Assembly: GCA_037176885.1 (NCBI GenBank)
Contig: JAWWNJ010000012.1
Span: forward strand, 434,001-498,000
Reading direction: 5' to 3'
DNA length: 64,000 nucleotides
From: Favolaschia claudopus
Taxonomy: Eukaryota; Basidiomycota; Agaricomycetes; Agaricales; Mycenaceae
This document shows, piece by piece, positions 12,660 through 59,276 of this stretch. The notes under the pieces are model-generated. The model made no database searches, had not been told where the DNA came from, and saw nothing but the letters and a program-made list of their open reading frames with translations. Numbering within the stretch: the stretch's first letter is position 1; the number at the start of each line of letters is the position of its first letter. The position numbers and the translations under genes were made by a program.

Positions 12660-13080
12660 TCGCAATATTCTGTTCCCAGTCAAAATCCAACTCAATTTTG
12701 ACTCAACTGGTGGAGGTTGTTTCTTGGATCAGTTTATGTAGATGTTTGATAGTGACTTGTAGTATGACCTCGACGGTGTCTCACTGTACGACCTTTTGAA
12801 AATGGAACTTCACTATTTCAACTCCAGTCTATATCATATAAAAATGTTGATTGTGAAATGATGCTAATTCGCCACCAGCTGGATCAGCTGTAAAAACTCG
12901 CTTGGTTGAACCCACCGATCTCAAGATCAAACATGTAGCAATCAAAGAGTTGGGAAAAGCTGAGAAGAACCAATATCATTAATGGCCTGTCTGTTTTGCT
13001 AAGAGAATCAATTGGTGGCTACCACAAAAAAAATAACTTGATTATAAGCGAAAATGGATCGTACCCTATAAGACCAGATG
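12660..13080. other. Intergenic, no feature seen
   Basis: AT-rich stretch after the MYND gene. No coding or RNA signal could be supported. Confidence 0.35.
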
Positions 13081-40313: not shown

Positions 40314-40465
40314 AGGCTAAAGAGAACTTACGAGTCTCTCGTCAAATTTTCAATATCTCCGTATACTCTGTCCCCATCATCAACCCCAAACCCTCGCTTG
40401 ACTACCTGTCCGTTTCATCGCCCCGACTACCCGAAAGCCTCCGACTGCTCCCAGCGCTCTCACGT
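40314..40465 (-). other. Element A 5' leader, gag-proximal part
   Basis: Untranslated leader between the gag start and the insertion point of element B. Its other part is 58574-58856. No coding or structured signal was found. Confidence 0.6.
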
Positions 40466-42262
40466 TGTAACGACTGGCCGTTTTTGCGCGTTATATCTGG
40501 CTATTTTAAGTCAAGTGCGGCCCTAAACAACCCAACTACCCGCCACGACTATAGTCATACTCGACTATCAATAGGAAGTCAGTACCTCTGTTGGTGACAC
40601 AAAGGAGGGTCAAAGTGAGCTCCGAGCTGTTGACCGTAAAACCCATCACAGGAGAAAGGCATTATATTAATAGCCTACTGCAGTACTATGGATCTGTTCC
40701 GTAACAGAACCCTCAGAAGAGTGACGAAGAGTCAAGTACTTGTGTACTACGGACTTAGACGAAGGTCTACAAGGATGTAGGAGGTGCCGCGGGGGCTATT
40801 AGAGTCAACATCAGTCAAAAGACAGATGCCGCGGGCTGCCGACTATAAATAGACGGCTGGAACAGGGGAAAGGGATCTCATACAGGAGATGCCGGTGCTA
40901 GGATCAGAAGGCAGAGTTATGGCAAGACATGAGGTCTTTGACAGGAGTGATGATGATGTGATGCTGAAGCCGAATGAGTGCGGCAACTTCATTAGAAATC
41001 TATTTCTATATTGGAGTCAGCGCGGATGACTTGGTGGCTTGATAAATTGGACAACAGACGAGCCTGTGATATTGCGAGTGAATTGGAATGTCCCAAGAAT
41101 AGTCTTAGGAGTTATTAGAGGCGTTGATGGCACCACCGGAAGGGTTGCCGCCAGTGACGGATTGACGGGATCACCAATGATGGCGTTCCGCGGGCATCCG
41201 CAATTCAGTGATTCAACCGTGAGAGTCATAATTGCTGACTTTCTACCGTTGGATCGACAAGCCAAGAGGCTGCCGAAGGTCCGCCGGGACACCCAAATAC
41301 CAATATACCATCTCTCTACTCAATTGGATCGACATTGCTTACTCTGTACTATTTATGTGATGTATTTCTTGGCATTAGTATAAAAGGACCTGTATTTCTC
41401 GTTGAGCTGGAGGACATCGCGCTCAGTCTATTGGACAGCGTTGGTGAACTCAGGCAGCAACGTAGAGGCATATATAAAGATATTGTCTACTCGTTTGTCT
41501 TAATAGAAATTGTGTTGAAGTTCAGTTCAAGTGTGAATCTAAGCATCGTTTCGAGAGTGTTCACCCGCGGAGGCTTTGCTTTCGAGTAGCTTTGTCGTGG
41601 CCTTAGTGTGTAAGGAACTGCCTGCCTCTACTGCCCGCGAACTGCCTATCTCATTGTGAAGATACGTGTGCTCGAGAGTGAACTAGCATCTCCCTGAGTC
41701 TGAGGAGGAGTGGAACTGTCCATCTGCTGAAGCATTGCGTTGGGACTGCTGGCGCATAACCGGAAGAGATCTGATTAGTCCTCGTCTGAAAGGCTTGTGC
41801 TATATAAAGGAGTGTCAAAGGTTCCTGGAATTTGGAGGTTCAGGTCTATAGCGTAACTGGCGCTATAAGAATTGTGCATTCTGCCGCGGAAACTGTCTGT
41901 GGTCATTGTTTCAATCTCGCCCTGATATTCAACTGCGTTGGGTATCTTGTATCCTACCGTTTATAGTTCCTATTTTTAGGAAAGGTCCGCGGACGGAATC
42001 ACTTCCATCTACGGTGTGTGAGAGCGTGTTTTGTGCAAGGTTCCTACTTGCAAGTCGACTTATATCCTCGTCACTGTGACATCTGGATTTCGGATCGAAC
42101 CCCACGAACTCTTCGAGAGACATTTGAGTGTATCTTGTTGAGATATTTGTGTTGTAGTGTTGTGTGTGTTGGTTGATTGTGTTATATATATATTTTGGTG
42201 GTAGATTCTCTGCTGCGCTATATTTAGCACTTCAGTTGATATATTCAAGTGTCAGCGTTACA
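40466..42262 (+). repeat. Element B 5' LTR (1797 bp)
   Basis: Begins TGTAACG and ends CGTTACA (7-bp inverted ends). Matches 56781-58573 except for a G/C near 40867, a GGAT insertion near 40899, a C/T at about 41282 and an A at 41640 where the 3' LTR has G. Six CCGCGG motifs lie within it. Confidence 0.95.
40844..40851 (+). promoter_or_regulatory. TATA-like box in element B LTR
   Basis: TATAAATA, followed by 'gacgg'. Two further TATA-like strings lie in the same LTR: TATAAAAG at 41379-41386 and TATATAAAG at 41801-41809. Which one drives the genomic RNA cannot be told from sequence. Confidence 0.35.
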
Positions 42263-42264
42263 TC

Positions 42265-42281
42265 TGGAGCCCACCGCGAGG
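42265..42281 (+). promoter_or_regulatory. Element B primer-binding site
   Basis: TGGAGCCCACCGCGAGG lies 2 nt after the LTR. Its complement ends in CCA, as required for a tRNA 3' end. Element A has exactly the same 17 nt after its 5' LTR. The tRNA identity was not determined. Confidence 0.75.
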
Positions 42282-42357
42282 GGTTCGGTGGTAATTTGTT
42301 GATAAAACAAAACGCGTTGCTGTAGTTGGGAGAGTCTAGAGAAGGGACTTTCCTGGG

Positions 42358-44226
42358 TTGTCGAGAATTCCAGCCCAAACAAATCCTCGTACTAGAAAGA
42401 CGTCGAGGAGAGGCAGACACCAGCGTAGCCCGTCTCCATTAAATACAGGAGCAGGTTCCAGGAGTTTGCTAGAGCAAGCCAGGGTTGCACTACAAGAACC
42501 CGCTCAAACGTCGACTTCAAGGAACAGTCTTATACCCGAGTCTGTAAATTGGGGACCCTCGACGTCTGGCAGAAAACCGCGTACGACCAAAAATTCCAGT
42601 ACAGGACGGTCGTCTAGTTCGTCACCAGTTAAGAGAAGAAGGAGAGCGCGTTCCGCGGAAGCTATAAATACTTCTGCAGCATTACCTTTTGAGGGACACG
42701 CAACCCACTCGGACGGCGAGCTATCTGATCATTTGAATCAGACCATCGAGGCTATTTCGAACTCCGTAGCCAAGATAAACCCCCCACAAACAAACACTAT
42801 GGCTACCTACGACGAGATTGATAAGAGCAAGATCCCGGATATTTTTGGGAGACATAACCTGAAATTCGATGACGAAACAGGGGATTTGCCCAAGTATTTG
42901 GAAGGGATCGAAGATATCATCGCGAAGCAAGGAAAGCTTAGTGAGCAGAGCAAGAAGTGGATAGCACACCACTATGCGAACAGTAAAGTGCAGAAAGAAT
43001 GGCAGGCTTTGCCCACCTATACGAACGGAACGTATGAGGAATGGAAGGCGGAATTGATGGATGCTTATCCTGAAGTTCGTGCAGTAGAGAAAGGTTCCCG
43101 CGCGGGCTGGGCATCTTTCTTGAAACAGTATACAGACCGTCCGGTGAGAATAGACGAGGAAGTTGAATTTGCCAACTATTGTCGAAAGTTCCGCGGACGA
43201 GTTGCAGTGATGAACAAGGACCGAGAGATGCTCTCAAGGCGCGAGTTGGCGCAAGACTTTTTGAAAGGTATTCACCCTACCTTCAGGGAGACTCTTCGCA
43301 ATATTGTGCTAGCCAGAAGTCCGACGGAACTTACTTCGTACCAGCGAGCAAAATCTGAATATGAAGCACTGCCTGCGAACAAAGGAAAGGCCTATAAACC
43401 GGCCTACACTCACCCTGATGACCTGTACGAATGGGCAGACTTTGAGGAAATATTGAAGTCGTTGATCAAAAGTAATGACTCTATTTTCTTCACAACTCCC
43501 TCGGATACAAAGAGGAAGGCTGTTCTATTTTCGGGTAGTTCAGAGGGTGGAGATGAAGCTGCCAAGTTGAAGGCTAGATTGGAGAAGCTTGAGGCTGATT
43601 CCAAAGCCAGAGAGGAGAAAATTCTCCAGTCGAGTAAGGAGATCAAGGACAAAATGGAAGAGACCTTGGCCAATCATCTGGACAAGTTTACGACGGACCA
43701 AAAACAGGTCATGTCCAAGATGCATGAAGCCTTGTCGAAAGGGACTTCCAATTATCCTAGTCGTCCTGCAGAGAGAAGAGAATACGGGCCAGACAGGCCA
43801 TCGTATACACCGGATAGGCCGCCTCTTAGAGAAGGCAAGCCTACGGGCTGTTACTATTGTTGGGATCCTTCGCATTATGTTGCGGACTGCAAGCACAGAA
43901 GGGATGATATTACTGGGGGCCTGCTAATCCTGAAAGATGGGCGTATGTTCTTCTATGATGGAAAGGCTTTGCCGCGGGAACCCAAGAATAAGAGCTACAT
44001 GACCAAAGTGCGGGATTACTATAACAATCGTACTCAGGTGTATTATAACCAAGAGGCGTTTGAGTACTATTATGCTAGTGACCCCACTGCACCGGCCGCG
44101 GAGTCGTTTGCGAGTGAATCCAGGGAAGAGTCAGACTCTCCTGCCACCGCGGATAGACTGGACAGAATCGAGGAGTCTGTTGCAAAGATAGCGCAGTTTA
44201 TGGCGGCTCAGAAGGATTTTCAGTGA
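42358..44226 (+). CDS. Element B Gag
   Basis: Open for 622 codons, ending in TGA at 44224-44226. The first in-frame ATG is 42799 (MATYDEIDKSK), giving 475 residues. The 147 upstream codons have no ATG but look coding (Arg/Ser-rich, SPVKRRRRARSAEA), so a spliced leader or non-ATG start is possible. Counting from 42358, a capsid-like helical region covers about 150-370, an acidic/basic coiled coil (KLKARLEKLEADSKAREEK) about 400-460, and a CCHC zinc knuckle C498-x2-C501-x4-H506-x4-C511 (CYYCWDPSHYVADC). Gag forms the particle and binds RNA. Protease follows in the -1 frame. Confidence 0.85.
   Translation: MSRIPAQTNPRTRKTSRRGRHQRSPSPLNTGAGSRSLLEQARVALQEPAQTSTSRNSLIPESVNWGPSTSGRKPRTTKNSSTGRSSSSSPVKRRRRARSAEAINTSAALPFEGHATHSDGELSDHLNQTIEAISNSVAKINPPQTNTMATYDEIDKSKIPDIFGRHNLKFDDETGDLPKYLEGIEDIIAKQGKLSEQSKKWIAHHYANSKVQKEWQALPTYTNGTYEEWKAELMDAYPEVRAVEKGSRAGWASFLKQYTDRPVRIDEEVEFANYCRKFRGRVAVMNKDREMLSRRELAQDFLKGIHPTFRETLRNIVLARSPTELTSYQRAKSEYEALPANKGKAYKPAYTHPDDLYEWADFEEILKSLIKSNDSIFFTTPSDTKRKAVLFSGSSEGGDEAAKLKARLEKLEADSKAREEKILQSSKEIKDKMEETLANHLDKFTTDQKQVMSKMHEALSKGTSNYPSRPAERREYGPDRPSYTPDRPPLREGKPTGCYYCWDPSHYVADCKHRRDDITGGLLILKDGRMFFYDGKALPREPKNKSYMTKVRDYYNNRTQVYYNQEAFEYYYASDPTAPAAESFASESREESDSPATADRLDRIEESVAKIAQFMAAQKDFQ
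44214..44220 (+). promoter_or_regulatory. Candidate -1 frameshift site, gag/protease
   Basis: GGATTTT, with gag codons GAT TTT, lies two codons before the gag stop. A one-base backward slip on TTT leads into TCA GTG ATT CCG ATG of the protease frame. The same string stands at the next junction. Not a canonical X-XXY-YYZ heptamer. Reinitiation at ATG 44232 is an alternative. Confidence 0.4.
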
Positions 44227-45608
44227 TTCCGATGAGGGAGACTTGCTCGCGGAAAGCTCCTGAGGATCCGAAAGCCAAAGACCGCGTTCCAGAAAAACAG
44301 AAAAACCAACAAAAAGAAACAGTAGCCGAGAGAGATAATGGGAAGGTGTCCATTAAGCCAGCCAGAGAGAATAGAGTAGAAGTGTTGCTACCAAAGCGTT
44401 CTACTCAACCTACGAGGAAAGTCACCGTTGAAGAAGTCAGTGATTCTGAGGACGAGTCGGTTGGTGTCAGAAATAAAAATCAGAAGGAAGAACTTCCGTT
44501 CAAGGATGTGAAACCTCTGTCTGACCCTCCCGTACGACCCGCGTTCCCGCGAAAACCAGCAGAGGAGCAACATGGCCAAGGGTCATCAGGTTCACGAAGA
44601 ACAAGAGTGCCTAAAGATACTCAGCGGCGAGACAAAGCTACCGCGGAGATTGCAGACGCTATTCGGGAAACTGTGATACCAGTCAAAATAGGCACATTGC
44701 TGGATAGTAACGAGATGCTCCGGAAAACTCTTGAGATTGGGGGTCCGCGGAAGAACAAAGCTAAATTTATGAAGACTACTTCTGGTGATATTGTTCCTAC
44801 CAAGGTGCACAACTTTGTCGTCCAAAGGGTGCTTGAGGAAGAAGACTCAGACTCTGAGAGCCCCGCGGATGATGAAAGTGAAGCTGAGGATAACGTTCGA
44901 GTTGAGACAACAACTTGTGAAGTTGTAGATGAGGATGGAAAGACTGTGTCGGTGTTGATGTTTGACACGTTCCCTGAATTGGTTACCTCCAATGATCATG
45001 ATTTACCGGAGGGAAGCGTTATTTGTGGGGACCCTGTCCTTCAATACTATGAGTCTCTACCAGAGGGAGAAAAAGCGAAAGCTGTTAAAGTCCCGGCCGC
45101 GGGCTCCTCTGCAAAGCTCAGATGCATTCATCCGTCAGTAAATGGCAAGTATGTGGAAGCCATTACGGATAGCGGCTCGCAGATTGTATCAATGAATGCT
45201 CAGTTGGCCAAGGAAATTGGTTTAACTTGGAATACAAATATAGTCTGTGAGATGGTTGCTGCGAATAGCCAGATCCAGTCCACTTTGGGCTTGGCTATAA
45301 ATGTGCCGTTTAATTTTGAAGGGATAGTGATGCACCTTCAAGTTCATATTATTGATGAGGTGCCTTATGAAGTTCTTTTGGGACGCCCCTTCGAAATTTT
45401 GTCAGAAGCTGTGTTTGCGAGCAAGAGAACCGGCGAAGTCGAGATCACAATTACGGATCCGCGCACAGGGAACAAAAATACCTTTGCAACCTCTCAGAGG
45501 GGGGCCAAAATAGATCGAGACACAGGAAAGCCAGTCCAGACAGCTCCCGCGGAGACCAAACCGGATTTTTGCAAGTCTTCGAGGAACTCAAAGATGGGGG
45601 AGAAGTAA
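44223..45608 (+). CDS. Element B protease domain
   Basis: Frame open from before the gag stop (first ATG 44232) to TAA 45606-45608, about 460 residues. A charged, probably disordered first half (KVTVEEVSDSEDESVG; DSDSESPADDESEAED) precedes a retropepsin-like domain with active-site AITDSGSQIVSMN (D316-S317-G318 counting from 44223) and the downstream VLLGRPFEI motif expected near the flap/C-terminal part. The enzyme cleaves the Gag-Pol polyprotein. It lacks its own strong start and lies -1 to gag, so expression by frameshift or reinitiation is likely. Confidence 0.8.
   Translation: MIPMRETCSRKAPEDPKAKDRVPEKQKNQQKETVAERDNGKVSIKPARENRVEVLLPKRSTQPTRKVTVEEVSDSEDESVGVRNKNQKEELPFKDVKPLSDPPVRPAFPRKPAEEQHGQGSSGSRRTRVPKDTQRRDKATAEIADAIRETVIPVKIGTLLDSNEMLRKTLEIGGPRKNKAKFMKTTSGDIVPTKVHNFVVQRVLEEEDSDSESPADDESEAEDNVRVETTTCEVVDEDGKTVSVLMFDTFPELVTSNDHDLPEGSVICGDPVLQYYESLPEGEKAKAVKVPAAGSSAKLRCIHPSVNGKYVEAITDSGSQIVSMNAQLAKEIGLTWNTNIVCEMVAANSQIQSTLGLAINVPFNFEGIVMHLQVHIIDEVPYEVLLGRPFEILSEAVFASKRTGEVEITITDPRTGNKNTFATSQRGAKIDRDTGKPVQTAPAETKPDFCKSSRNSKMGEK
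45563..45569 (+). promoter_or_regulatory. Candidate -1 frameshift site, protease/pol
   Basis: GGATTTTT (codons GAT TTT in the protease frame). A -1 slip on TTT continues as TTG CAA GTC TTC in the pol frame. The protease frame stops 13 codons later. Same GGATTTT string and same slip direction as at gag/protease. Confidence 0.45.
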
Positions 45609-48543
45609 TGGCCGCGTTTGAGTACAACGACCATGGGGAGTTGGTGTGCACAGGATATGGTTTACCGAAAGACGGGGATGTTGTTACGCAGGATGACAGG
45701 ACGATGGCATATTTATTGGCGTCTAGGGACGCATTTGCAGGAGATAAGAATGCTAGTGTATTGTTGAATCAATACGCGGGGCAGGTAGAGAAAGATAAAG
45801 GCACAGATGTCTTCTTGTTCACGGAATCTGGAAGCCCGGGAAGCCCGAGAAAATCGAACCGTGGAAAGCATGCACCTGATCCGGGTGATAGCTCGGCTAA
45901 GTCTGCGTTTGCCTACATGGAGCGAGATTCCCGCGTGAACGATGATAAAGATAGTTCCGCGGAGGCGGCGGACCGTGCGCCGAAAGTGAACCGTAGAAAG
46001 CGAAAATACAAGAAGAAAAAGAAGAAGAAGAAGTCTAAGAGGACTTCGAAGGCAGAGGGAGCAGAGACCGTCCCTGCTGCGAAGGGGAAGCTGAATTTTG
46101 AAGTACCGGTGCCGGAAGTACCAAGAGAGCAATTTATTTTTGGAAATTTGGGCATCTCTATGGGAAAACAGCGCGTATTTGCTACTAAGAAGTACAAACC
46201 GGTTGCGGAAAAGATTAAGCCTATCCTTGGAAAAGTGGATGAGAAGTTCAGGATTGTGCGGAATATCACGGGGGATCCTTTGAAGGATATGCCGAAAATA
46301 GAAACGGATATTCCTGAGATTCACCCAGTAGGAAGATATACCGCGGAGCGAATGGAGGCATTTGAAAAGACTCATAACACTGGGTTCTTATTGCCTGAAG
46401 AGATGAAGTTGCTTCATCATTTTATGATGTTGCATAACGAGCATTTCGCCTGGGAAGAGGATGAGCGAGGGCAATTCAAACATGAATATTTCCCGCCCGT
46501 TGATATGCCTGTGGTACCACATACACCATGGGTATGCTCGCAAATTCCAATTCCGCCGGGACATTTTGAAGAGTTCTGCCGCATCATCAAGTCTAAATTA
46601 GATGCTGGGGTGTATGAACCATCCAACTCGTCCTACAGGTCACCTATTTTTGCGGTGATAAAGAAAGATGGAAAGTCATTGAGAATTGTACACGCGTTAG
46701 AGAGGTTGAATGAGGTTACAATTCAACACTCTGGGGTACCTCCCGCGACGGAGAAGCTAGCAGAACATTTTGCTGGTCGAGCGTGCGGAGCTTCGTTGGA
46801 TATGTTTGTCGGATATGATAATAGGGACTTAGCGGAATCTTCAAGGGATTATACAACCTTCCAGACGCCGTTTGGGGCACTGAGGTTAGTAAAATTACCG
46901 ATGGGATGGACCAATTCTGTTCCCGTGTTTCACGAGGACGTTTGTACCATCTTGAGAGATGAAATGCCGCATGTAACAATCCCTTACATAGACGATGTAC
47001 CTGTCCGCGGGGGACCTACGAGGTACGAGACAAAAGATGGCGATTGGGAAAGGATTGCTGCGAATCCTGGAATTAGAAGATTTATCTGGGAACATCTCGA
47101 GAATTTAAATCGAGTTGTGACTAGAATGGCTTACGCAGGAGGGACTTTTTCAGGGAAGAAGTTAGTCCTCTGTGCGGATGAGTTTGAAGTTGTAGGGCAT
47201 ATTTGCTCTTACCGCGGAAGAATTCCTGATCCTAAGAGGGTGGACGTTATTAATAACTGGGGTCCTTGCGACTCTTTCACGCAAGTGAAGGCGTACTTGG
47301 GCACGGTTGGGGTTCTGAGGAGCTTTATTGAAGGGTACGGCGACATTGTTGCACCTATCAATGAGTTAACGAAGAAAGACGTTCCCTTTGTATGGACCGC
47401 GGACTGTGATGAGGCGCAGGCCAAAATTAGAGAAAGGTTGAAAAACTGCCCAGCTCTAAAACCCCTACGGTACGACTGGGATTCGGACATAGTAATTCAA
47501 GTGGATACTTCATGGAGAGCTGTGGGAATTATTATCTACCAGCTGGACCCAGATGATCCTAAGAAGAAATACTTTGCACGATTTGCGAGTATAACGTTAG
47601 GGAAGACCGAGACGAACTATTCGCAACCTAAACGAGAATTGTACGGGTTGATGAGAGCTCTAGAGGCCATGTATTATTGGATTTTCGGAGCAAGGAAGCT
47701 TGTGGTTGAAACCGACGCGTTATACATCAAGGGCATGTTGAAAAACCCTGGAATGGGCCCTAACGCCACGATTAACCGCTGGATTGAAAAGATCTTGATG
47801 TTCCATTTTAAGCTGAAGCATGTCCCTGGTGAAAAGTTTGCACCCGACGGGTTATCAAGGAGAGATCCTTTCCCTGGGGATGAACAATTCAAAAATTCGG
47901 AAGAGGGTTATGACCAGAATGAACCTCCCGAGGAGCATGAGGACGTTTCCGCGGAAGGCCCACAGCCGTTGGAATTCGGGGACTTTAAACACCTTATTGA
48001 TACCAGAGGTGGATATTTCCAGTCGGAGGATGAGCATCTGGAGATTGTGGACGTTGATGCAGTTTGTATGGAAGATTTCCAACGTGATTGCGAGAGTGCC
48101 AGAATGACTGAAGCTAATCTGGCGAGAGCACTCAGAGAAGCGTACTCGAAGGAGAATAAGCAGATCCCTGAGTATATTTTAATGACGGAGCCTCTGATTC
48201 CAAATTTAGAATTGAAATGGGATGAGTCGAAGCGAGAGCCTTATGATGAAGAGCATCGTTCGGATTGGATGAAAAAGCGAGATGCTAAATTACCATTGGT
48301 AAAGGAATGGCTAGCGGACCCTATGAAAAGGCCCGCGGGAATGAATGATGATGCAGAGTATAGAAGTTTTATGCGCTTCGCCTCACATTTCTTTTTGAAA
48401 GGGGGGAGGATGTATAAGAAATCTTTTGGCACTGCGAATCAATTAGTTGTTGACAAGGAACACCGCATGTACATGATGAAGGCTGCTCACGACAGTCTGG
48501 GTCACCGCGGGAGTTATGCAACTAGAGAATTGATTACGCTGTG
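45569..48543 (+). CDS. Element B reverse transcriptase-RNase H, ending at an internal TGA
   Basis: 991 residues; the frame opens without an ATG (first ATG 45608), consistent with entry by -1 frameshift. A Lys-rich stretch (about 150-165) precedes RT: FAVIKKDGKSLRIVHALERL, FQTPFGALRLVKLPMGWTN and catalytic Y473-I-D-D476 (PYIDDVPVRGG). RNase H follows (VIQVDTSWRAVGIIIY; VVETDALYIKGML; HVPGEKFAPDGLSRR). The integrase zinc domain begins (HDSLGH), then TGA at 48541-48543 interrupts it. In the same frame the DNA continues FWWPGIEADV, where CGA (Arg) would be expected; CGA to TGA is a simple CpG transition. RT copies element RNA to DNA in the particle. Confidence 0.88.
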
Positions 48544-49831
48544 ATTCTGGTGGCCAGGAATAGAAGCAGATGTATTTTGGTACATTGCGTCTTGCGACGC
48601 TTGCCAAAACCGACAACATACACTGTTGAAAGTCCCGCCAGTTTTGACCCATACTCCAAGTCTATTTCAGGTCATCCATACCGATGTAATGGTAATGGGG
48701 CAAGTGTCCAATAAATGTGGACTAGTTGTTGATGCGAGGGACTCGTTGAGTTCTTGGTTAGAAGCGAGACCGCTTGTGAGAGACACGGCTCACGCAATTG
48801 GAATGTTCCTATTTGAAGAAATCATTTGCCGTTGGGGTTGCCCAAAGCAGATTGTAACGGATAATGCGGGGCAGTTCAAGAAAGCTGTGGAATGGTTGAA
48901 ACAGAAATACGGAATACCAAATATTCAGATTTCACCGTACAACTCTCAAGCGAACGGGAAGATTGAAAGTGGACACTTCCAAATGCGTCAGGCATTGTTC
49001 AAAGCGACTGGCAAGAATCCGTCTAAATGGTTCTGGTTCTTCCATGTTATGCTTTGGTCAGACAGAGTTACGGTTAGAAAAGGATTAGGTTGTTCACCTT
49101 ATTTTGCGGTCACTGGAGCGCATCCAATTCTACCGTTGGATATTGAGGAAGCTACTTGGTTGGTTGAAATACCAGGTCGAGTGTTGACGACCGCGGAACT
49201 GATAGGGCTAAGAGCCAGAGCTTTAGCAAAGCATGTTGCCCATGTTGAACACATGAGGAAGCGTGTAGATCATGCTAAAATGGTTCAAGTCCGTAAACTC
49301 GAACGGTACAATGAACATACGATTAAAAACTATGATTTCAAACCGGGAGATCTGGTTCTCGTGCGCCACACTGAAGTAGAGAAGTCTCTGAACTCTAAGA
49401 TGGATCAGAAGGGGAGATACCTTGGCCCAATGGTTGTTATAAGACGTACCAAGGGAGGAGCGTATATCCTAGCTGAAATGAACGGCGCGTTATTCCATGA
49501 CAGGATAGCCGCGGGGCGTGTGGTTCCATACTTAGCACGTCGCCGAATGCAAATTCCGCTCAACATCCAAAAGTTTATTGATGTATCTACGGAGACACTC
49601 GAAAAGCTAGTGGACGATATTCCCGCGGAAGGGGAAAAGACAAAGGAGCGCAGCTCAAAGAAGATAAAGGATCTAGCCTTCGATAAAGTAAATATAAGGG
49701 TAACACCTGAAGACTTCGAAAAGGCTGAGTCCTCAGAATCGGAGACTGGGAACGATGATGATGAAGCAGAGTCGGACGATGAGCCAAAAGAGTCGGTTGG
49801 TCCTAGACGGTCCAAACGCAGGAAGCATTAA
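48544..49831 (+). CDS. Element B integrase, continuing after the TGA
   Basis: Same frame as the RT. It starts with the rest of the zinc domain (CDACQNRQ), so it is not an independent gene; the first later ATG is 48626. The catalytic core shows D (VIHTDVMVMGQ), D (IVTDNAGQFKKA) and E (SQANGKIESGHFQ), the D,D-35-E triad. A GPxVV-type segment follows (KGRYLGPMVVIRRTKGGAYI). The tail is acidic, then basic (GPRRSKRRKH). No chromodomain was seen. Its last 99 nt overlap the antisense gene ending at 49733. Integrase joins the cDNA to the host chromosome; readthrough or a repaired copy elsewhere would be needed for function. Confidence 0.85.
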
Positions 49832-50632
49832 AGATTGTGGTGGTATGCGCCTCTGTAATCTTAAATTAGAACTTCTCCGCGGAAGGATTAAAATGGGAAG
49901 ATCGTACTTGTCAGGCGATTCGACGGAGTGAATGGAGATGCCAGGAGGAAGGAGCTTGGACATACGAAGCTCGACGAAGCCGAGAGCGGAGTTGTCGTAG
50001 CCGTGAAGGATGAGTTCCTTGCGCATGTAGGCGAGTTCATGAAGATCATCGATCTTGTTGACCGCTTTGATGAACTGGGCCTTACGAGCCTTGATGGAAA
50101 ACTCATGGTGGTAGGCAAAAGCTTCGTCAAGCTGGTTAAGCATGGTCTCCAGGTCGACGGTACTGCGACCGAAGATGATAGCTGAAGGGGAGGATTAGCG
50201 AGGTATAAGTCTGGAAATCTATAAATGGACGCACCAGGACCTCCGCGCTTCTCCCAACTTTCGATCATCTTGTCCTTGCTGGTGAAGTCGCAAGGATGGA
50301 ATTGAATAAGACAGTTGTGGCAAGGAGGACCCCAACTAGTAGGAGCGCAAGGCTCGACGTTGTGCTTCTTGGCGCAGCAAGAGCACTGTTCAGTCGGCTG
50401 GTGATAAAAATAGATCAGTCGAAGTTGAAAGTAACAAGTACTAAGGACGCACCTTATTATCTTCCATAAGATAGATGGCAGCTTGGAACTTGGGAAGGAT
50501 CTCGCTGACAGGGACTATGATATCGCGTGCGAAGGCTGCGAGGATTGCGGCAGGATCCATTTCGTCGGGGCTGTCATAGAGATAATCGTAGTAGTCGTCG
50601 TTCTCTTCGTCGTCTAAGCCGTGGATGCTCAT
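49733..50632 (-). CDS. Antisense gene 1 of element B: Cys6-cluster protein
   Basis: Three exons with fitting phases: 50632-50453, 50397-50235, 50181-49733, about 263 residues. Both introns start GTGCGTCC and end CAG. The acidic N-terminus (MSIHGLDDEENDDYYDYLYD) leads to a cysteine cluster C65-x2-C68-x8-C77-x8-C86-x2-C89-x6-C96, close to the fungal Zn(II)2Cys6 pattern although the first loop is 8 rather than 6. Exon 3 is helical (TMLNQLDEAFAYHHEF). The last part overlaps the 3' end of integrase on the other strand; an alternative intron there could change the C-terminus. Lying antisense to the element RNA, its introns survive retrotransposition. DNA binding is inference. Confidence 0.62.
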
Positions 50633-50639
50633 GCAAAGA

Positions 50640-51278
50640 GAAAAGAATATTATGGGAGAAGACGTTCCTATGAGGCACTGTTTAAATAGTAAACACTGCT
50701 GAGGAGATGTCTTGCCTGTGATTATTTGAATCAGATTTTGTATTGATCATAAGCGGGACGGAGGAAAGTAAAGGAGTGAGACTTGAAGTCTAGGCTTGCC
50801 AAGACTTAGAGGCGCAAAATATCCAGTGGAATAAGGGCTTCAAGGAGCATGTAGGCGGTCACGGCAATGGAGTCGTTCACAAAAAGGCTTCCGCGGCGGC
50901 TTGAAGTACTTGAGAAGTTGAAGTAGGACTGGACGATTGGAGTTCTATTTTTGGAATTCTGAGCGCGGAAAAAGAGTCTTACCACTCCTGAGATGTCCAA
51001 GATACTGCGGGAAATCGGACGAAGTTGGCTTGACAAAACAATTGTATTGCAAGCACTGCTAAGTATATACGAGACACCCGGGGATTTGGACAGTTGCTGG
51101 TTGAACAGCAAATATGTGCGGTTGAACGCACGACGATACGATAGGGAACACTGAGAGTCGACGGTTTATGTGTCTAAAGAGCGAAGGCACATAGGTATAT
51201 AGGCCGCGGAAGGACGATCAAGTCTAGAAGGCGGAAAGGTTTAACTGGAGAGCTATAAAAATAAACGCAGAGACATAC
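50640..51278. other. Between antisense genes 1 and 2 of element B
   Basis: Contains the unresolved 3' end of antisense gene 2. The frame after the last donor (GTATGT at 51278) could resume after 'tag' near 51253 or after 'ctttag' near 51175. Two CCGCGG motifs at 50891 and 51204 and one at 51278. No other gene was seen. Confidence 0.4.
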
Positions 51279-52913
51279 CGCGGAACTAGCAGGGCGCATA
51301 ATGGGATCCTCGTTGTCGGCGTGATGGATCTTCATGAGCTGCTCGAGCTGGTCATCCATCTCCTCGTAGGCGCGAAGCCAGTAGCGATACTTGAAGGAAG
51401 CGGCGGCCATGTTGCGGCGGAGGTAGCGCTCGCGAGCCTTGAAACCTTGCGCGTCCAAGTGCTTGAGTTGGTTCTGAGAGACCTTCCAAGTCTTGTTGAC
51501 ATCGTCCGAATGCATGATGGCGATGAGGTCCTTGTCCATGGAGTCTATAATAAAATTTAGACGAAATTAGATCAAGGAGAAGATGAACTCGTACCAGGGA
51601 CTTTGGGCTCGTAGTCGAGGTCGACGTCATCCGGTTCGGTACGGGCACGCTTGTTGCTGCGGTTGGACACAGGGTTCAACGACAAAGCAGGCTATGAGCG
51701 AGAATTAAGCAGAGAAACAGAGTTGACGAATATTTCACGCACCATAAGTGGTTCCGCGGGCGCCATCTACAACAATTGATGAACGTTAAGCGAGAATTCA
51801 ACCGTGGGATATGGGTTACGTACCTTCTCGTCCTCGTCAGGACAAGTGGAAGATGTGTCGGAGTTCTTCGCCTTGGGGCCTTTGCCCTAATAAAACGATG
51901 TTATAAAAATAGAACAAAGTGAAAAGGCGAACGCACAGGAACTTTACGAACATTTTTGAACATGTCCTCTGGAACGGGATCGTCAATGATGCGCACGGAT
52001 TTGCCGTCGTCTTGAGGAGCCTTACCGGCAGGAATACCGTCCTTGGGTTTGACAGGGCAGTTGTCCTGGCCGTGCTGGTGAGAAGAGCAAGACGAACAAA
52101 CGGAATCTGGGTGAATGAAGAGGAAAGTGCAGAGGGATAAAAATAGACGCACAGTGTCGTTCTTGACCTTGGGCGCACTATTCTTCTGGAAGGAGAGACC
52201 AGGGGGCAAAGAGGAGCCTCCTGCGCGATAGTTGGCTCCCATGGCAGCGATATAGAGAGGGTTGATTCTACCTTCGTCCTTGTCGAGATCCATCTGGAGT
52301 TGGTTAATACCATAGATAATCTTCGTAACGTCTGAGGAATACCTGATCAGCGACGGAAGCTTCCTCCGCGGAGTCGTCGTCCCCGGAATCGTCGATGACT
52401 TCAACAGACTTACCCTGCATTATAGAGGACAGTTCAGGACCAGGAGGCATGCGACAAACACGAGAAAGCACCTGTTGAACTTGAGCCTTAGCACGGTGGC
52501 CCTTGATGGCTGCCGCGGCCTTGTCGCGCTTGCTATTCTTGGCGTTGTGGTAGTTGTTGAGCATGCGGTCGATAGCGCCAAGCTGGGAAGTAGGGATCTT
52601 GAACTTAGAGATCTTGTACTCGTCCCTCATAGCGTTGGAGGCGGCAGTAAGAGCATTGACGACCTTCTCGTTGGAGGGGTGCTGAAGGGACTGAGCGAAC
52701 AGTTTGAAGTCCGACTAAAAATAGACAGAGTTAGCGCGGAAAGCGTTTGGGCATGCAAAAATATGGACGAACCGCCGCGGCTGCGAACGTGCTGAGCGTA
52801 GAGTGAATGACAGCCGCAGGGAGAGAGTCTCTGAGGGCAAGGACCCGTTGAAAGTCGCGTTCAGCTTCAAGGATAAGGTTGGACGCTTCGATGAGCGCAG
52901 AGCGTGGTGCCAT
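51279..52913 (-). CDS. Antisense gene 2 of element B: eight-exon nuclear-type protein
   Basis: Start ATG 52913 (MAPRSALIEASNLILEAERD). Exons 52913-52773, 52714-52343, 52293-52153, 52074-51937, 51886-51824, 51766-51743, 51691-51595 and 51544-51279 join in phase for 414 codons; the 3' end beyond is unresolved. Introns are about 46-83 nt, several with GTGCGT donors. The protein is helical at first, then has two SUMO-interacting-like motifs (VEVIDDSGDDD and VRIIDDP), a basic NLS-like NRSNKRARTEP and a C-terminal helical block (LEQLMKIHHAD). No enzyme family was recognised. Eight exons in register with no stops suggest selection until very recently. The antisense position preserves the introns in the genomic RNA. 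Confidence 0.6.
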
Positions 52914-53972
52914 GGCATGCGATGAAGGCCTATAGGCGACGAAGAAATGAGCAGAGAACAGAAGTCAATTTATAGTTTTGACTAGGAGAGCTTGGTTAAA
53001 TTAATAATGACCGGCTACGATCAGAAAAACGAGCCAAGGCTGTTGGTTGCACCTCTAACTGAATTGAATATGCGAGGACGCATCTTTTTTCTTTAGTGAG
53101 GGGGAGAATATAGAGCAACAGACAACCGCGGGAGGGTATTGCGCCACCGCGGGCCTTGCAAATTTACCCATAAAGAGACAGGGAAATTTCGTTTTGCTAA
53201 AATTAGACGATTTAGAGCTGGAGCGTTGCAAAAGCCAAGTTGCGGAAGAGTTTTAAGGCTGAATAATGTCGATCGGTTCCTATACGATCGATTTTAAGAG
53301 GCAGTTAGGGATGATAGTGGGTATTCTATTAAGCAAGAGACTTGTAGAATACACAGGCGGGAGTACAGAACTCTACCTTGAGTACCCACCGCGGTACTTA
53401 CAGGAAAGAGAGTTGGACTGTGCTAAAAATAGACCCGCGGAAAACTGAAAGAGAAGAGTTGACTAAAGGAAACTTTTTGACGACTTGAAGAAAAGTGTCA
53501 ATTAAGTGTCAAGTGTGACTTCTGATTGAAGTACAGGAGAAATTGGACTGATTCCAATAAAGTGGAGGAAGGATTTTGACGATGGACTTGGTCAAAATTC
53601 AGCCTTCGGCAATCTCCGAAGATTGATGATGGCATGATGGCCGTTTGATGTCGACTGGGTGAATTTAGTTTAAGACTAAAAATTCTTAAGAAGTTCACAC
53701 GGTTGAATCAGAGGCAGCGATAAGCGCCAGTGGGCGCTAGTATACATTTGAACTCAAGTAGTATGGTTTACAGGCAAAGTAAACTAAAAGCTAATACTAC
53801 TGAGTGAGATATGTAAGAAAGTCGTTTTTTTGAATTGGTCTACGCTACGGCTGGAGACAACAGCACTACAGAAAAAATATCTTCGAGAGTTTAAAGACTA
53901 GAAGAGGATAGTCTGGGTACATGCAACGGTAGATTGTAGCAAAGAAAAAATCGAGAGCAGCAGGCCGAGTGT
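52914..53972. other. Spacer between antisense genes 2 and 3 of element B
   Basis: About 1.06 kb with no credible ORF. It holds CCGCGG at 53126, 53147, 53389 and 53435, and a TAAAAATAGAC string directly before the last. It likely contains the promoter of antisense gene 2 and the terminator of gene 3, though neither could be pinned down. Confidence 0.4.
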
Positions 53973-55952
53973 TCATCCGCGATCCACCCTCTTCCCTTTA
54001 TCCACAGGAGTCTTCTCCGCACCCTTCCCTTTGCGTTGGGCTGAAGAGGTCGGAGGGCGCGCCTTTGACGAGCTGGGAGCAGGAGTCTCCAACAAAGGGG
54101 CGGGTCCGAAAGCAACCACCGGCGTAGCAGGAGCCGCGGTTGGTTTGGCCGGAGACGTCGTCTTGGAAGAGGAAGCGACGGGAGTCGACGAAGGACCCGC
54201 GGAGGTCAAATCGTCGAAGGTAACGGTGGGCCGCACTTTGGGATCCATAGTCTCGAGGACACCCTTGAGTTCCAAGTCAGGGATAAGACGATTGGAGAAC
54301 TTCGGGTGGTAGACGTGCTCAGAGACGACCCCAGCCTCGTCCGTCACAGGAATGGCGCTGGAGGTGGCTTCGTGCGCAACGAAGTCCTGTTCTAACTCGT
54401 AGAAAGACTTCTTGGACATAACGTGCGCTACGAACTCCCGTGCGAGATCCGACCCCTCTTTATCCTCGAAGAAATCGTCAAACTGTTCGACGGCCAGAGA
54501 ACGCTCAGCGCCGGAGATAGTCAGGGCAGTGTCTTGAGCCTGCAGACGAAGGTTGTTGATAGCACGGGCGTGGGCAAACGCAGTAAACTGGGCATCTTCG
54601 TAGGCCTGAACGAGCCGCTGGAGAGCCGCGGCGATGGTGTGTGGTGCGACTGCGATGAAAGGACGCATGCACTCCACGAACCGTTTGAAGGTGGCCGGAG
54701 ACCAGTTGAAAGAGCACTTGTGTTTATAATGGGCGCAACGAACGCACACGGAGGAGCGACCTCCGACGGGTCGGCATTCAGCGTAGTTGAGGACGCAGTT
54801 TAAGCAAGGAAAGGCGACCTTCGAAAGCAAGGGAGGCACCAGTGAACTCTGTACATAGGAAGTAGGGATTTTCATCTGCGCGGGAGCAGGAAGACCTAGA
54901 ATTGAAAGAATAAGAGTTAGTAAAAAGAAGAAAAGTTTGATACAGGGGAACGTACCGGTCTCTGGAATATCAAAGAGCAATTGAAGAAGCTCAGCGCGAG
55001 TGGAGATCGAAATAGACGGCTCCGCCGGCGTGGCGGACCGCTCAGAAATCGGCGCAGGCGTGGGAGTGCGTTCAGGCGTTGGAGTGCGTTCTGGGGATGG
55101 GGTGCGGTCCTGGCGCTGCCGTTTAGCTGGTGGTTTTTCGTCTTCAGAGTCCTCGCTCTCGGAAAACATCGCGGCGGGAGCGGTGCGCTTGGGCACAGCG
55201 ACGATGCACGGAATGCAGAAGTCGCCCCCGAAATGCTTTGCCTTTGGATCCGCGGCGATGATGGCATCCTGGATCTCCGGAGAAGGACGAAGATCGCGGT
55301 AAATAGGGATAAGTTCGGCGGCGGCAGCAGGAGGAACTTCCTGGGCGATATGGCGGATGACGTTGGAGAGAGCCCAAAGGAAAGCTTCGACGTTGAGCGG
55401 CAGATCAGGATGGTCGCGACGATAGGGCACCTAGGAAAGATGAAGTATTAGTCAGAAAGATAAAAGATAGGAAAGTTAAGGAAGACGCACGAGGGCAGGA
55501 GTCAACAAGGCCAGACTACGGATTTGGTCGACCGTCGGAGACGGCGGTTTGTGGACAAAAAGCGGTACAAGATCGCGGGCTGAAGCATTGTCGAAGGGAG
55601 CCCAAAAAGCGGCGGAAGGATCGTCTGATGGAATCTTAGGCGGTGGAAGAATCGACGCGGTGCGCGCAGACTTGCTGGGTCCAGCGACGGGTGCGTCGAC
55701 GACGGGTGTCATAGCTTTGACGGGCTTAGGAAGCGCTTTCGGTTTGGGTCTAGGAGGCGGCGACGGTGTCTGAGACGGAGACGCTGGGTCCTCTGGTTCT
55801 GGAGTACCAGGCTCGACGTCTTTGGGCAGAACTACTGAGTCGCGGCCAGGGCCAACCCTAGCCTTGGTGACGCGCTTGCGTTTCGCCACGGTGGTGCTGG
55901 TCTTGCGGGTAGAGCGGCGAGTAGGCTCAGCGGTACCCTTCTTAACGGGCAT
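53973..55952 (-). CDS. Antisense gene 3 of element B: Zn(II)2Cys6-like protein
   Basis: Three exons in phase: 55952-55491, 55430-54956, 54895-53973, giving 619 residues; introns of 60 nt begin GTGCGT and GTACGT and end TAG. The basic N-terminus (KKGTAEPTRRSTRKTS; AKRKRVTKARVG) looks nuclear. Exon 2 has SPERTPTPERTPTP repeats. Exon 3 carries C343-x2-C346-x6-C353-x9-C363-x2-C366-x6-C373, which fits the fungal Zn(II)2Cys6 binuclear cluster spacing, followed by helical sequence and a Pro/Ser/Thr-rich tail with basic end (KGKGAEKTPVDKGKRVDRG). Such clusters usually bind CGG triplets. Basic residues between the second and third cysteines are fewer than usual, so structural homology needs testing. 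It starts about 0.8 kb inside the 3' LTR. Confidence 0.62.
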
Positions 55953-56767
55953 ACGTCCGGCGACGAGCACCAGAGGGAGGTGATGGTTGTGGATGCAAGA
56001 GCAAGAGAGAGTCCAAGGAGTGGGCTACTCGGCGACGTAGGCGTCGAGGAGCGCGTCGAAGGGCCAGAAGGATAACCAAGAAGATAGCCACAGGGTGTAA
56101 AACACTGTGTGTGGTGGTGGTGGAAGGAAGGAAGAAGTGGGCGCTAAGAGACGCACCCACTCAGTCTATAAGTCAGCGCGGACTTAGAGAAAATTTCTCT
56201 AAGTCGCCACGCCTTCAAGAGGACTGAATTAAATGATCAGTGACTCACTTTGAAAGAAGAACAGAAGACGGAAGTTAATCTGGCGCGCAGCCGCAGTAAT
56301 TAGAAGCCAAGATTAAGGTTTGATGAAAACCTAGGGCGGAGGCGGCCGCGGCGAATGATAAGCCGGAGGTACAGATTAGATAAAGCGGAAGTGCAAACGC
56401 ACTTAGGATTAGGGTTGGTGGAGTCCAGGACGGCGAAAATTTGAACGAGTCGAAAAATATAAGGAAAAGAGGTGAAAAACCCCTGTCCGAATATTTCAGA
56501 CAGAAAGTGTCAATGACGTCATATGCCGTAATGATTGGCGTCCGCGGAAGCAACTGTCTAAATTAACAGACGGAACGTCTTAGCGAGTAGTGCAGTAGGA
56601 CTTGACTAAAAACAAGTCGCTCGAGGAAAAAGGGACAGAGAAGTAGTTTGCAGTTGGTCTAAAAATAGACGTCCGCGGGAGTTGTCATCCTTGCGGTCCA
56701 CTAGATTTTAAGCCAAAAATAAGCACAGACTTTGGTGCTGGCTATAGACCGGGGACGGTCTAGATTT
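55953..56767. other. Region between antisense gene 3 and 3' LTR of element B
   Basis: Likely 5' region of antisense gene 3. A donor-like GTGCGTCTC on the minus strand near 56156 may mark a 5'-UTR intron. CCGCGG at 56346, 56542 and 56673; the last is preceded by CTAAAAATAGACGT. No other gene seen. Confidence 0.4.
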
Positions 56768-56780
56768 AGTGAAGGGGAGA
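56768..56780 (+). promoter_or_regulatory. Element B polypurine tract
   Basis: AGTGAAGGGGAGA directly abuts the 3' LTR start TGTAACG. Purine-rich and in the right position for plus-strand priming. Confidence 0.75.
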
Positions 56781-58573
56781 TGTAACGACTGGCCGTTTTT
56801 GCGCGTTATATCTGGCTATTTTAAGTCAAGTGCGGCCCTAAACAACCCAACTACCCGCCACGACTATAGTCATACTCGACTATCAATAGGAAGTCAGTAC
56901 CTCTGTTGGTGACACAAAGGAGGGTCAAAGTGAGCTCCGAGCTGTTGACCGTAAAACCCATCACAGGAGAAAGGCATTATATTAATAGCCTACTGCAGTA
57001 CTATGGATCTGTTCCGTAACAGAACCCTCAGAAGAGTGACGAAGAGTCAAGTACTTGTGTACTACGGACTTAGACGAAGGTCTACAAGGATGTAGGAGGT
57101 GCCGCGGGGGCTATTAGAGTCAACATCAGTCAAAAGACAGATGCCGCGGGCTGCCGACTATAAATAGACGGCTGGAACAGCGGAAAGGGATCTCATACAG
57201 GAGATGCCGGTGCTACAGAAGGCAGAGTTATGGCAAGACATGAGGTCTTTGACAGGAGTGATGATGATGTGATGCTGAAGCCGAATGAGTGCGGCAACTT
57301 CATTAGAAATCTATTTCTATATTGGAGTCAGCGCGGATGACTTGGTGGCTTGATAAATTGGACAACAGACGAGCCTGTGATATTGCGAGTGAATTGGAAT
57401 GTCCCAAGAATAGTCTTAGGAGTTATTAGAGGCGTTGATGGCACCACCGGAAGGGTTGCCGCCAGTGACGGATTGACGGGATCACCAATGATGGCGTTCC
57501 GCGGGCATCCGCAATTCAGTGATTCAACCGTGAGAGTCATAATTGCTGACTTTCTACCGTTGGATCGACAAGCCAAGAGGCTGCCGAAGGTCTGCCGGGA
57601 CACCCAAATACCAATATACCATCTCTCTACTCAATTGGATCGACATTGCTTACTCTGTACTATTTATGTGATGTATTTCTTGGCATTAGTATAAAAGGAC
57701 CTGTATTTCTCGTTGAGCTGGAGGACATCGCGCTCAGTCTATTGGACAGCGTTGGTGAACTCAGGCAGCAACGTAGAGGCATATATAAAGATATTGTCTA
57801 CTCGTTTGTCTTAATAGAAATTGTGTTGAAGTTCAGTTCAAGTGTGAATCTAAGCATCGTTTCGAGAGTGTTCACCCGCGGAGGCTTTGCTTTCGAGTAG
57901 CTTTGTCGTGGCCTTAGTGTGTAAGGAACTGCCTGCCTCTACTGCCCGCGGACTGCCTATCTCATTGTGAAGATACGTGTGCTCGAGAGTGAACTAGCAT
58001 CTCCCTGAGTCTGAGGAGGAGTGGAACTGTCCATCTGCTGAAGCATTGCGTTGGGACTGCTGGCGCATAACCGGAAGAGATCTGATTAGTCCTCGTCTGA
58101 AAGGCTTGTGCTATATAAAGGAGTGTCAAAGGTTCCTGGAATTTGGAGGTTCAGGTCTATAGCGTAACTGGCGCTATAAGAATTGTGCATTCTGCCGCGG
58201 AAACTGTCTGTGGTCATTGTTTCAATCTCGCCCTGATATTCAACTGCGTTGGGTATCTTGTATCCTACCGTTTATAGTTCCTATTTTTAGGAAAGGTCCG
58301 CGGACGGAATCACTTCCATCTACGGTGTGTGAGAGCGTGTTTTGTGCAAGGTTCCTACTTGCAAGTCGACTTATATCCTCGTCACTGTGACATCTGGATT
58401 TCGGATCGAACCCCACGAACTCTTCGAGAGACATTTGAGTGTATCTTGTTGAGATATTTGTGTTGTAGTGTTGTGTGTGTTGGTTGATTGTGTTATATAT
58501 ATATTTTGGTGGTAGATTCTCTGCTGCGCTATATTTAGCACTTCAGTTGATATATTCAAGTGTCAGCGTTACA
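56781..58573 (+). repeat. Element B 3' LTR (1793 bp)
   Basis: TGTAACG...CGTTACA, near-identical to 40466-42262. It has seven CCGCGG motifs; the one at 57946 is CCGCGA in the 5' LTR. Confidence 0.95.
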
Positions 58574-58856
58574 GCGTACGCGATATGCAGCTAACGGGAG
58601 AGTCGGGTGGAAGTGAAGGATAAAGTGAGCGACGGATCACGGAGCTCACAGTCCGGAATGACCGGACCGACTACCCGTGCCAGCAGTACGGCGCCAACGC
58701 GATCCCCGTCGCGTCGCTCTCCCCGCCCCCCAGCCCCCCAGCTCCATCGTAAGTATTTTGAAGCCAGAGGGTACGTCTTGGAGTTAAGGAATATTACTCT
58801 TCCGTTACTCCGACCGTCGGGTAGGGGTAGATTCATTTTCTCCCTCCAAGCGGAGC
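58574..58856 (-). other. Element A 5' leader, LTR-proximal part
   Basis: Leader of element A between its PBS and the point where element B is inserted. A small minus-strand frame (58836-58591) is open but has no recognised domain. Confidence 0.6.
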
Positions 58857-58873
58857 CCTCGCGGTGGGCTCCA
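58857..58873 (-). promoter_or_regulatory. Element A primer-binding site
   Basis: On the minus strand TGGAGCCCACCGCGAGG lies one base after the end of the 5' LTR. Identical to the element B PBS at 42265-42281, so both elements probably use the same tRNA primer. Confidence 0.75.
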
Positions 58874-58874
58874 T

Positions 58875-59276
58875 TGTGACGCGGGCTCGGAATGCTCCGC
58901 TAGGAGGGAGAGACTGGTTCTCGGAGCAGCCATAGGCGCTAACGAGGACCAGTCTGAGAGGCGAGAGCCGAGTGTTGAGGCTCTCGTCGTCGTTGTAACC
59001 CATCGACGAGGGACCTGTTACCCTGGATAGGGACCTCTTGCAGCACCAGGGTTGTGGAGCAGTTATACACTTGCTCAGGCAACCAGGGGGGCGGTAGGGG
59101 TGGTCCCTCGAAGATCTTGAAGCTCACATATTCCGTTGATAGAGTATAAAGCAAAGTAAGATCGTATTACCAAATACTGATACGTAAGCATACTATCTAC
59201 GGATTAGATAAGATATATACACATTTAAGGGCTCCTGGCCGCGTCTTGCAGTGAGTAATTATACATAGGCGTCACA
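58875..59276 (-). repeat. Element A 5' LTR (right copy, 402 bp)
   Basis: TGTGACGC...GCGTCACA, partner of 14291-14692. Followed directly by the second CAATC target duplication. Confidence 0.93.

Follow-up and report, generated by a model that had tools for sequence, protein, structure and literature searches.

Precedents for element B

To our knowledge, sequence-specific self-recognition by mobile elements has been documented best for the VANDAL elements of plants, which are DNA transposons. In Arabidopsis, those elements and their VANC proteins were described as an anti-silencing system (PMC5735166, PMC10398659); the VANDAL motif stands in one orientation, mainly in non-coding tandem repeats, and is not the same from one VANC type to another. 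The present study concerns element B, a retrotransposon with long terminal repeats (LTRs) from the agaric Favolaschia claudopus (Mycenaceae), which occupies positions 40466..58573 of a 64,000-nucleotide stretch of contig C12 (hereafter, the window) and is crowded with exact copies of the hexamer CCGCGG. Element B shares with VANDAL elements a short motif that is enriched in its own family and rare elsewhere, an element-encoded candidate reader, and a motif density that is the likely signal; unlike the VANDAL motif, its hexamer is a palindrome, is dispersed through coding and non-coding retrotransposon DNA, and stays constant while a candidate gene of the element, termed X, varies. By analogy, the VANDAL precedent supports the principle of self-recognition, with an anatomy that differs in element class, in motif placement and in the lack of co-variation between protein and motif.

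The hexamer has a precedent in yeast, in which CCGCGG, two CGG triplets in opposite directions, is the site of Pdr1/Pdr3 (PMC3091778), and in which the pleiotropic drug response element (PDRE) has the consensus TCCGCGGA (PMC5539612). An earlier note on the window had treated CCGCGG as a zinc-cluster site, which is what these reports describe: a core CCGCGG, with a zinc-cluster reader of opposed CCG/CGG triplets that have no spacer, the reader in element B being a candidate. PDREs are few and promoter-bound, with four in the PDR5 promoter (PMC5539612), whereas the sites of element B are element-wide, and the element's proteins, unlike Pdr1/Pdr3, miss Pfam-level membership of the Zn_clus family.

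The arrangement of genes recalls the Retand/Grande-type LTR retrotransposons of plants, in which, as in element B, antisense open reading frames (ORFs) lie between pol and the 3' LTR; the available text of the corresponding report proposes a DNA-binding, element-regulating role for them, and calls the role of such antisense genes unknown (PMC11963269). Those ORFs belong to plants rather than to a fungus and mostly encode TRP28 (PF04195), which was not found in Pfam scans of element B that covered the X ORF and exon 1, exon 2 of a second candidate gene (Z) and part of a third (Y); the same portions of that report do not mention an element-wide motif. Mushroom transposons bearing TET/JBP genes likewise carry a gene proposed for escape from methylation silencing; those systems are enzymatic and reside in DNA transposons, and the accessible part of the report does not mention a site lattice (PMC12730594).

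A lattice of one exact hexamer

Direct counting located 53 exact CCGCGG in element B, extending from first to last site over 40787..58303, against 3.1-4.5 expected from Markov models of order 1-2, while the rest of the window stood at or below expectation (8 sites in 40.5 kb, with 12.3 expected, and none in 5.4 kb, with 2.0 expected); the excess claimed in the earlier note was thus upheld. When one LTR and the internal region were considered (16.3 kb), 46 sites were counted against an order-1 expectation of 2.95, and the largest counts among 200 simulated sequences at each of orders 1, 2 and 3 were 8, 12 and 25; an order-4 model expects 36 sites, but such a model already includes the five-mers of the motif. 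The sense ORFs hold 21 sites, against a mean of 1.71 and a maximum of 7 in 2000 synonymous-codon shuffles, and those of a relative (the group II copy described below) hold 20, against a mean of 2.02 and a maximum of 8, so that the enrichment survives both the Markov null (orders 1-3) and the synonymous-codon null.

The excess concerns a single word. One-mismatch variants of CCGCGG numbered 56 in element B with 57.8 expected, which is background, and seven other C/G palindromes together numbered 12 with about 21 expected; among 64 arrangements of CCG and CGG triplets that were scanned, the zero-spaced everted pair was far ahead of the others (46 versus 3.1). In the relative, one-mismatch forms were slightly raised (38 versus 28.9 and 40 versus 35.6), as were some other palindromes, such as CGCGCG at locus L065 (4 versus 1.1) and GGCGCC at locus L066 (5 versus 1.9). 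CCGCGG was the top enriched six-mer in each copy read with X class I, II or III (one copy per class). Gaps between sites in element B range from 21 to 1096 bp, with a spacing slightly more even than random in element B and at L065, though not at L066, and 21 of the 53 sites lie inside sense ORFs, in place of the non-coding tandem repeats of the VANC type.

A neutral mutational, codon or composition bias of the lineage is already largely refuted as the source of these sites, and we regard it as very improbable. Most coding sites do share one phase, typically reading x-Ala-Glu/Asp/Gly, which speaks for such a bias; against it, a single exact hexamer dominates, the excess is equal in the LTRs, and the synonymous shuffle, a sister locus of normal count in the same genome and a step in conservation at the six bases (both described below) all argue in the opposite direction.

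Retention of the motif among related copies

The group II copy on contig C43 (loci L065 and L066) carries 29 and 25 sites, amounting to 54 in 18 kb. Element B and L065 could be aligned over 7.9 kb at 73% identity, within which 13 of 19 B sites were common to both, six were found only in B and six were private to the relative; for comparison, 20% of all six-mers (binomial p=6.5e-6) and 11/33 of other C/G-rich six-mers (Fisher p=0.015) were retained. Conservation was 85% within the six motif bases and 67% in the 12 bases on each side (p=3e-5), and at L066, with 1.7 kb alignable, 3/3 sites were common with B. Within pol, seven sites were common, four were found only in B and three only in the relative; at several pol sites the sister family has identical residues, such as Thr-Ala-Glu, spelled with codons that do not make up CCGCGG, and other pol sites arrived together with amino-acid differences. 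The antisense region of B-type copies was compared at 14 loci, four of which (77-78% mean identity) were tested for retention, which exceeded that of the C/G controls at L062 (p=0.008) and L058 (p=0.013). Because 13 of 19 sites are shared where six-mers generally are retained at 20%, and because each side also has six private sites, these comparisons show, at the level of aligned sequence, that the exact hexamer is kept under selection as nucleotide sequence along the element.

The palindrome might be thought to work in genomic RNA, in packaging, dimerisation or Gag binding: a full-length transcript would include nearly every site, and a self-complementary hexamer could make kissing contacts. 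In predicted folds of element B, however, the sites were less unpaired (0.248) than those with shuffled flanks (0.325) or than C/G controls (0.348; p=0.006 and 0.008, respectively), and in the relative they were no more exposed (0.292 versus 0.329, p=0.35, and versus 0.396, p=0.04). Because the sites are unexposed in predicted folds, action in RNA is disfavoured, as is the packaging signal that the earlier note had entertained, and we consider it improbable; some fifty sites also look, in our opinion, excessive for packaging. From the nucleotide-level evidence, helped by this result, we infer that the reader of the lattice would act on DNA.

A role for CCGCGG as a host-facing mark of methylation or silencing, or as a decoy by which CG methylation is either drawn in or kept out, seems to us a slender prospect. 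Each site contains two CpGs, and some fungal DNA transposons encode TET/JBP enzymes for which an escape from methylation silencing is proposed (PMC12730594); yet a silencing target would be expected to be lost, and these sites have been gained and kept, and other two-CpG palindromes are unenriched in element B.

Candidate antisense genes that accompany the lattice

Three candidate genes, modelled from open frames and GT..AG introns, lie between the integrase ORF and the 3' LTR on the reverse strand. Gene X (53973..55952; exons 55952-55491, 55430-54956 and 54895-53973) would encode a protein of 619 amino acids with a six-cysteine (Cys6) cluster at 54714-54806 and basic stretches resembling nuclear localisation signals; its five relatives in the protein database all come from Favolaschia claudopus. 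The Zn(II)2Cys6 family (PF00172) follows the pattern C-x2-C-x6-C-x(5-12)-C-x2-C-x6-C, and that spacing is present in X, of which the best-matching halves align to the Zn_clus profile in swapped order; a structure model has, at low confidence, a short helix at each of the two CxxC pairs and a long helix after them. Gene Z (49735..50632; exons 50632-50453, 50397-50235 and 50181-49735) has a more widely spaced cluster, CSCC-x8-C-x8-CxxC-x6-C, and a 54-residue exon for which identity is 98% when the backbones read with X class I and class III are compared, and 44% in group II. Gene Y (51174..52914) has several exons in an incomplete model, a half cluster (CSSC..C), and matches at group II places with 31-33% identity. 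By their cysteine pattern, the element's proteins are Zn2Cys6-like, and are not shown members of that family. Y also contains acidic VEVIDD / VRIIDD stretches, and group II has a comparable one; we take these to resemble SUMO-interacting motifs, with a possible tie to chromatin factors.

A search of the organism's own genome (264.6 Mb) with 500 residues of reverse transcriptase (RT), in which 86 of 1738 first-look candidates were scored and the counts are lower bounds, returned at least 86 places, of which 63 were of B type (97-100% identity) and 23 of group II (90-91%). Matches to the antisense genes were sought downstream on the opposite strand, at 0.5-16 kb from pol for Z (150 of 276 candidates scored) and 3-26 kb for X. 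Z was found at 59 and X at 50 of the 63 B-type places (34 of class I and 16 of class III), and Z at 20 and X at 19 (class II) of the 23 group II places; X was thus missing from 13 B-type places, and at the one of these that was inspected, gag-like sequence of another element stood at the X position.

The same genome contains a sister family with 57-58% nucleotide identity to element B in pol. None of its 36 scored pol places (from 2228 candidates) had a Z or X match in those windows, and the one locus that was read holds 3 CCGCGG in 9.4 kb (2.65 expected), none of them within its 4.1-kb pol ORF; the six-cysteine pattern was not found in the approximately 5 kb beyond pol, of which the element's share is uncertain because the LTR was not identified. 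The enrichment that the earlier note expected to travel with the antisense genes is thus lacking in a related family without a detected antisense Cys6 gene, at one locus read and across one evolutionary split.

The rarity of the motif elsewhere was judged genome-wide from counts of TCCGCGGA, which makes up 9/46 of the CCGCGG sites in one LTR and the internal region of element B and 11/29 of those at L065 (raw counts), and from its first 50 places. It occurs 4423 times, against 2551 for the reversed control. Among the first 50 sites listed, 16 fall in a 30-kb stretch, C1:24641-54305, that holds matches to X, Y and Z (two of each) and corresponds to two adjacent B-like copies near the contig start; the remaining 34 are spread across some 4.4 Mb of C1, and no listed site lies at 54-181 kb of C1, around a sister copy at 105.7 kb.

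An exchangeable block around gene X

Alignment of element B with L067, a class III copy, delimited a block containing gene X (53543..56022): identity was 97.4% up to element position 13078, and only a 43-bp match was then found before position 15557, the block being almost wholly replaced in L067. Eleven loci were aligned along X. At L048, L054, L058 and L062 identity fell from above 90% to 57-80% across most of X and was restored beyond it; at L041 the drop was confined to X exons 1-2; L040 and L042 showed a short diverged tract within X, and L035 and L037-L039 remained close throughout. When eight class I copies were compared with element B, X displayed a dN/dS (nonsynonymous over synonymous substitution) of 0.01-0.05 with a dS of 0.8 to 2.2 (saturating), while 500 codons of pol in the same pairs displayed a dS of 0.06-0.09; synonymous sites have thus diverged 11 to 33 times as far in X as in pol, although the X protein is under strong purifying selection. 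As read from these alignments, X is a conserved protein of which old alleles sit on a young backbone, and the block that holds it is mosaic and exchangeable.

Such exchange raises the possibility that the lattice is an integration or recombination signal, which steers or prevents insertion into copies or exchange between them. Different classes of X block do occur on the same backbone, and neighbouring copies exist; the sites are nonetheless element-wide and thin across the exchanged block, with 2-4 CCGCGG per class, and we rate this as no better than an outside chance.

Matches to X across the genome range from 29 to 100% identity, and the motif is unchanged. A VANC-like behaviour of X, as a reader that changes the motif along with itself, is not supported, because the same motif is found under all three X classes read; no joint change of protein and motif between subfamilies was seen among these copies, one per class, and the variation of X under a constant motif runs counter to strict VANC-type co-evolution. 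X may instead be a reader of fixed specificity, or an effector.

Weighing an element-encoded reader

The best reading of these observations, unproven as it is, appears to be self-recognition by an element-encoded candidate protein that reads CCGCGG, to which we would assign a probability of roughly 0.4. A dimeric zinc-cluster-type protein would read the hexamer as DNA, and that protein would more likely be encoded by the element than by the host, given that the sites run through the whole element instead of being tied to a promoter, and that they accompany the genes. The purpose, proposed with lower confidence, might be to hold the element in an open, transcribed state.

The rival that deserves the most serious hearing, although we think it unlikely, is a host zinc-cluster factor with a Pdr-like CCGCGG site, which the element exploits while the Cys6 proteins that it encodes serve another role. 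Zinc-cluster proteins of fungi are known to use CCGCGG, the LTRs also carry sites, and X varies under a constant motif, all of which would suit a host factor; promoter use, however, covers the LTR sites and not the 21 sites in sense ORFs where 1.7 are expected, and a sister locus was read in the same genome without enrichment.

Several observations weigh against a reader encoded by the element. X scored 10.2 bits (class I, E=0.85) and 9.7 bits (class II, E=1.2) against a Pfam Zn_clus cut-off of 21, and the Pfam scan gave no Zn_clus match for X class III or for Z, so that the six-cysteine proteins of the earlier note hold up in the cysteine pattern of X and Z and fall short of the family cut-off. 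Classical Zn2Cys6 members carry basic residues in the first half of the cluster, and those of X lie in the second; the structure models are of low confidence (pLDDT, the predicted local distance difference test score, 58.7 and 51.2). X classes only about 30% identical occupy the same backbone under the same motif. Transcription factors usually tolerate one-mismatch sites, and such sites are unenriched in element B, despite their slight rise in the relative; the Pdr variant TCCGTGGA has no counterpart in element B (CCACGG/CCGTGG, 4 versus 5.3), and CGG-N3-CGG (13 versus 4.1) and CGG-N11-CCG (9 versus 3.1) are modestly raised in element B, neither being raised in the relative. Site retention did not exceed that of the C/G controls at L054 (p=0.38) or L046 (p=0.11), and the association of Cys6 genes with the lattice is one phylogenetic contrast, from a single evolutionary split. 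The element-encoded reader and matching lattice put forward in the earlier note are thus partly supported: they gain from the nulls, the sister contrast and the published site, and lose from the missed Zn_clus cut-off and from the range of X under an unchanged motif. Two outcomes that the note had named as refuting, a lack of enrichment over shuffled sequence and an equal enrichment in relatives that lack the Cys6 genes, were checked for, and neither came about.

A broader proposal, more tentative, is that the element possesses its own addressing system, in which a palindromic hexamer, written approximately every 350 bp so far as the encoded proteins permit, and the element's own zinc-cluster reader would allow copies to be recognised as self and kept active, while X, a second and exchangeable protein, would serve as effector or set the specificity. 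Because the site is sharply defined, is kept under selection even where it codes for protein, and belongs to a fungal retrotransposon with dozens of copies, the question lends itself to a direct test; the same backbone with different X classes provides natural replicas from which it could be told which protein reads the site, and, were the reading true, it would point to a possible function for the antisense genes of some large gypsy elements.

Anatomy and setting of element B

Element B is a young LTR retrotransposon with Ty3/gypsy gene order, having a near-identical LTR pair (99.6% in a blastn self-match) and the order protease, RT, RNase H and integrase. Its 5' LTR (40466..42262, forward strand, TGTAACG...CGTTACA) carries 6 CCGCGG and its 3' LTR (56781..58573, forward strand) carries 7. 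The forward-strand ORFs comprise gag (42358..44226; 5 sites, synonymous-shuffle mean 0.40), so labelled from its position and a CCHC-like motif spotted by eye; an aspartyl protease (44223..45608; PF13975, E=2e-7; 5 sites, mean 0.50); RT and RNase H (45569..48544; PF17917, E=2e-13, with PF00078 weak; 8 sites, mean 0.62); and integrase (48626..49831; PF00665/PF13610 weak and below cut-off; 3 sites, mean 0.19), the Pfam scores being strong for RNase H and weak for RT and integrase. We take a stretch that begins with TGG directly inside the 5' LTR (42265..42283, forward strand) to be the primer-binding site, and one read from the sequence ahead of the 3' LTR (56768..56780, forward strand) to be, presumably, the polypurine tract. 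Despite the identity of the LTRs, the flanks lack a target-site duplication (CACGT at 40461-40465, GCGTA at 58574-58578), which may point either to copies having recombined with one another or to an insertion of an unusual kind.

The primer-binding-site region (42255-42282) resembles the reverse strand at 58856-58882 (28 columns, 89%), some 280-310 bp past the 3' LTR; that match is possibly tRNA-like, although ARAGORN found no tRNA there. A second over-represented word, TAAAAATA/AAATAGAC, which is missing from the top list of enriched words in group II, occurs within 49413-56780 and in L067, partly within introns of the antisense genes; TAAAAATA was counted 7 times in the 3' half of element B, against 0.12 expected, and 7 times in L067, against 0.11.

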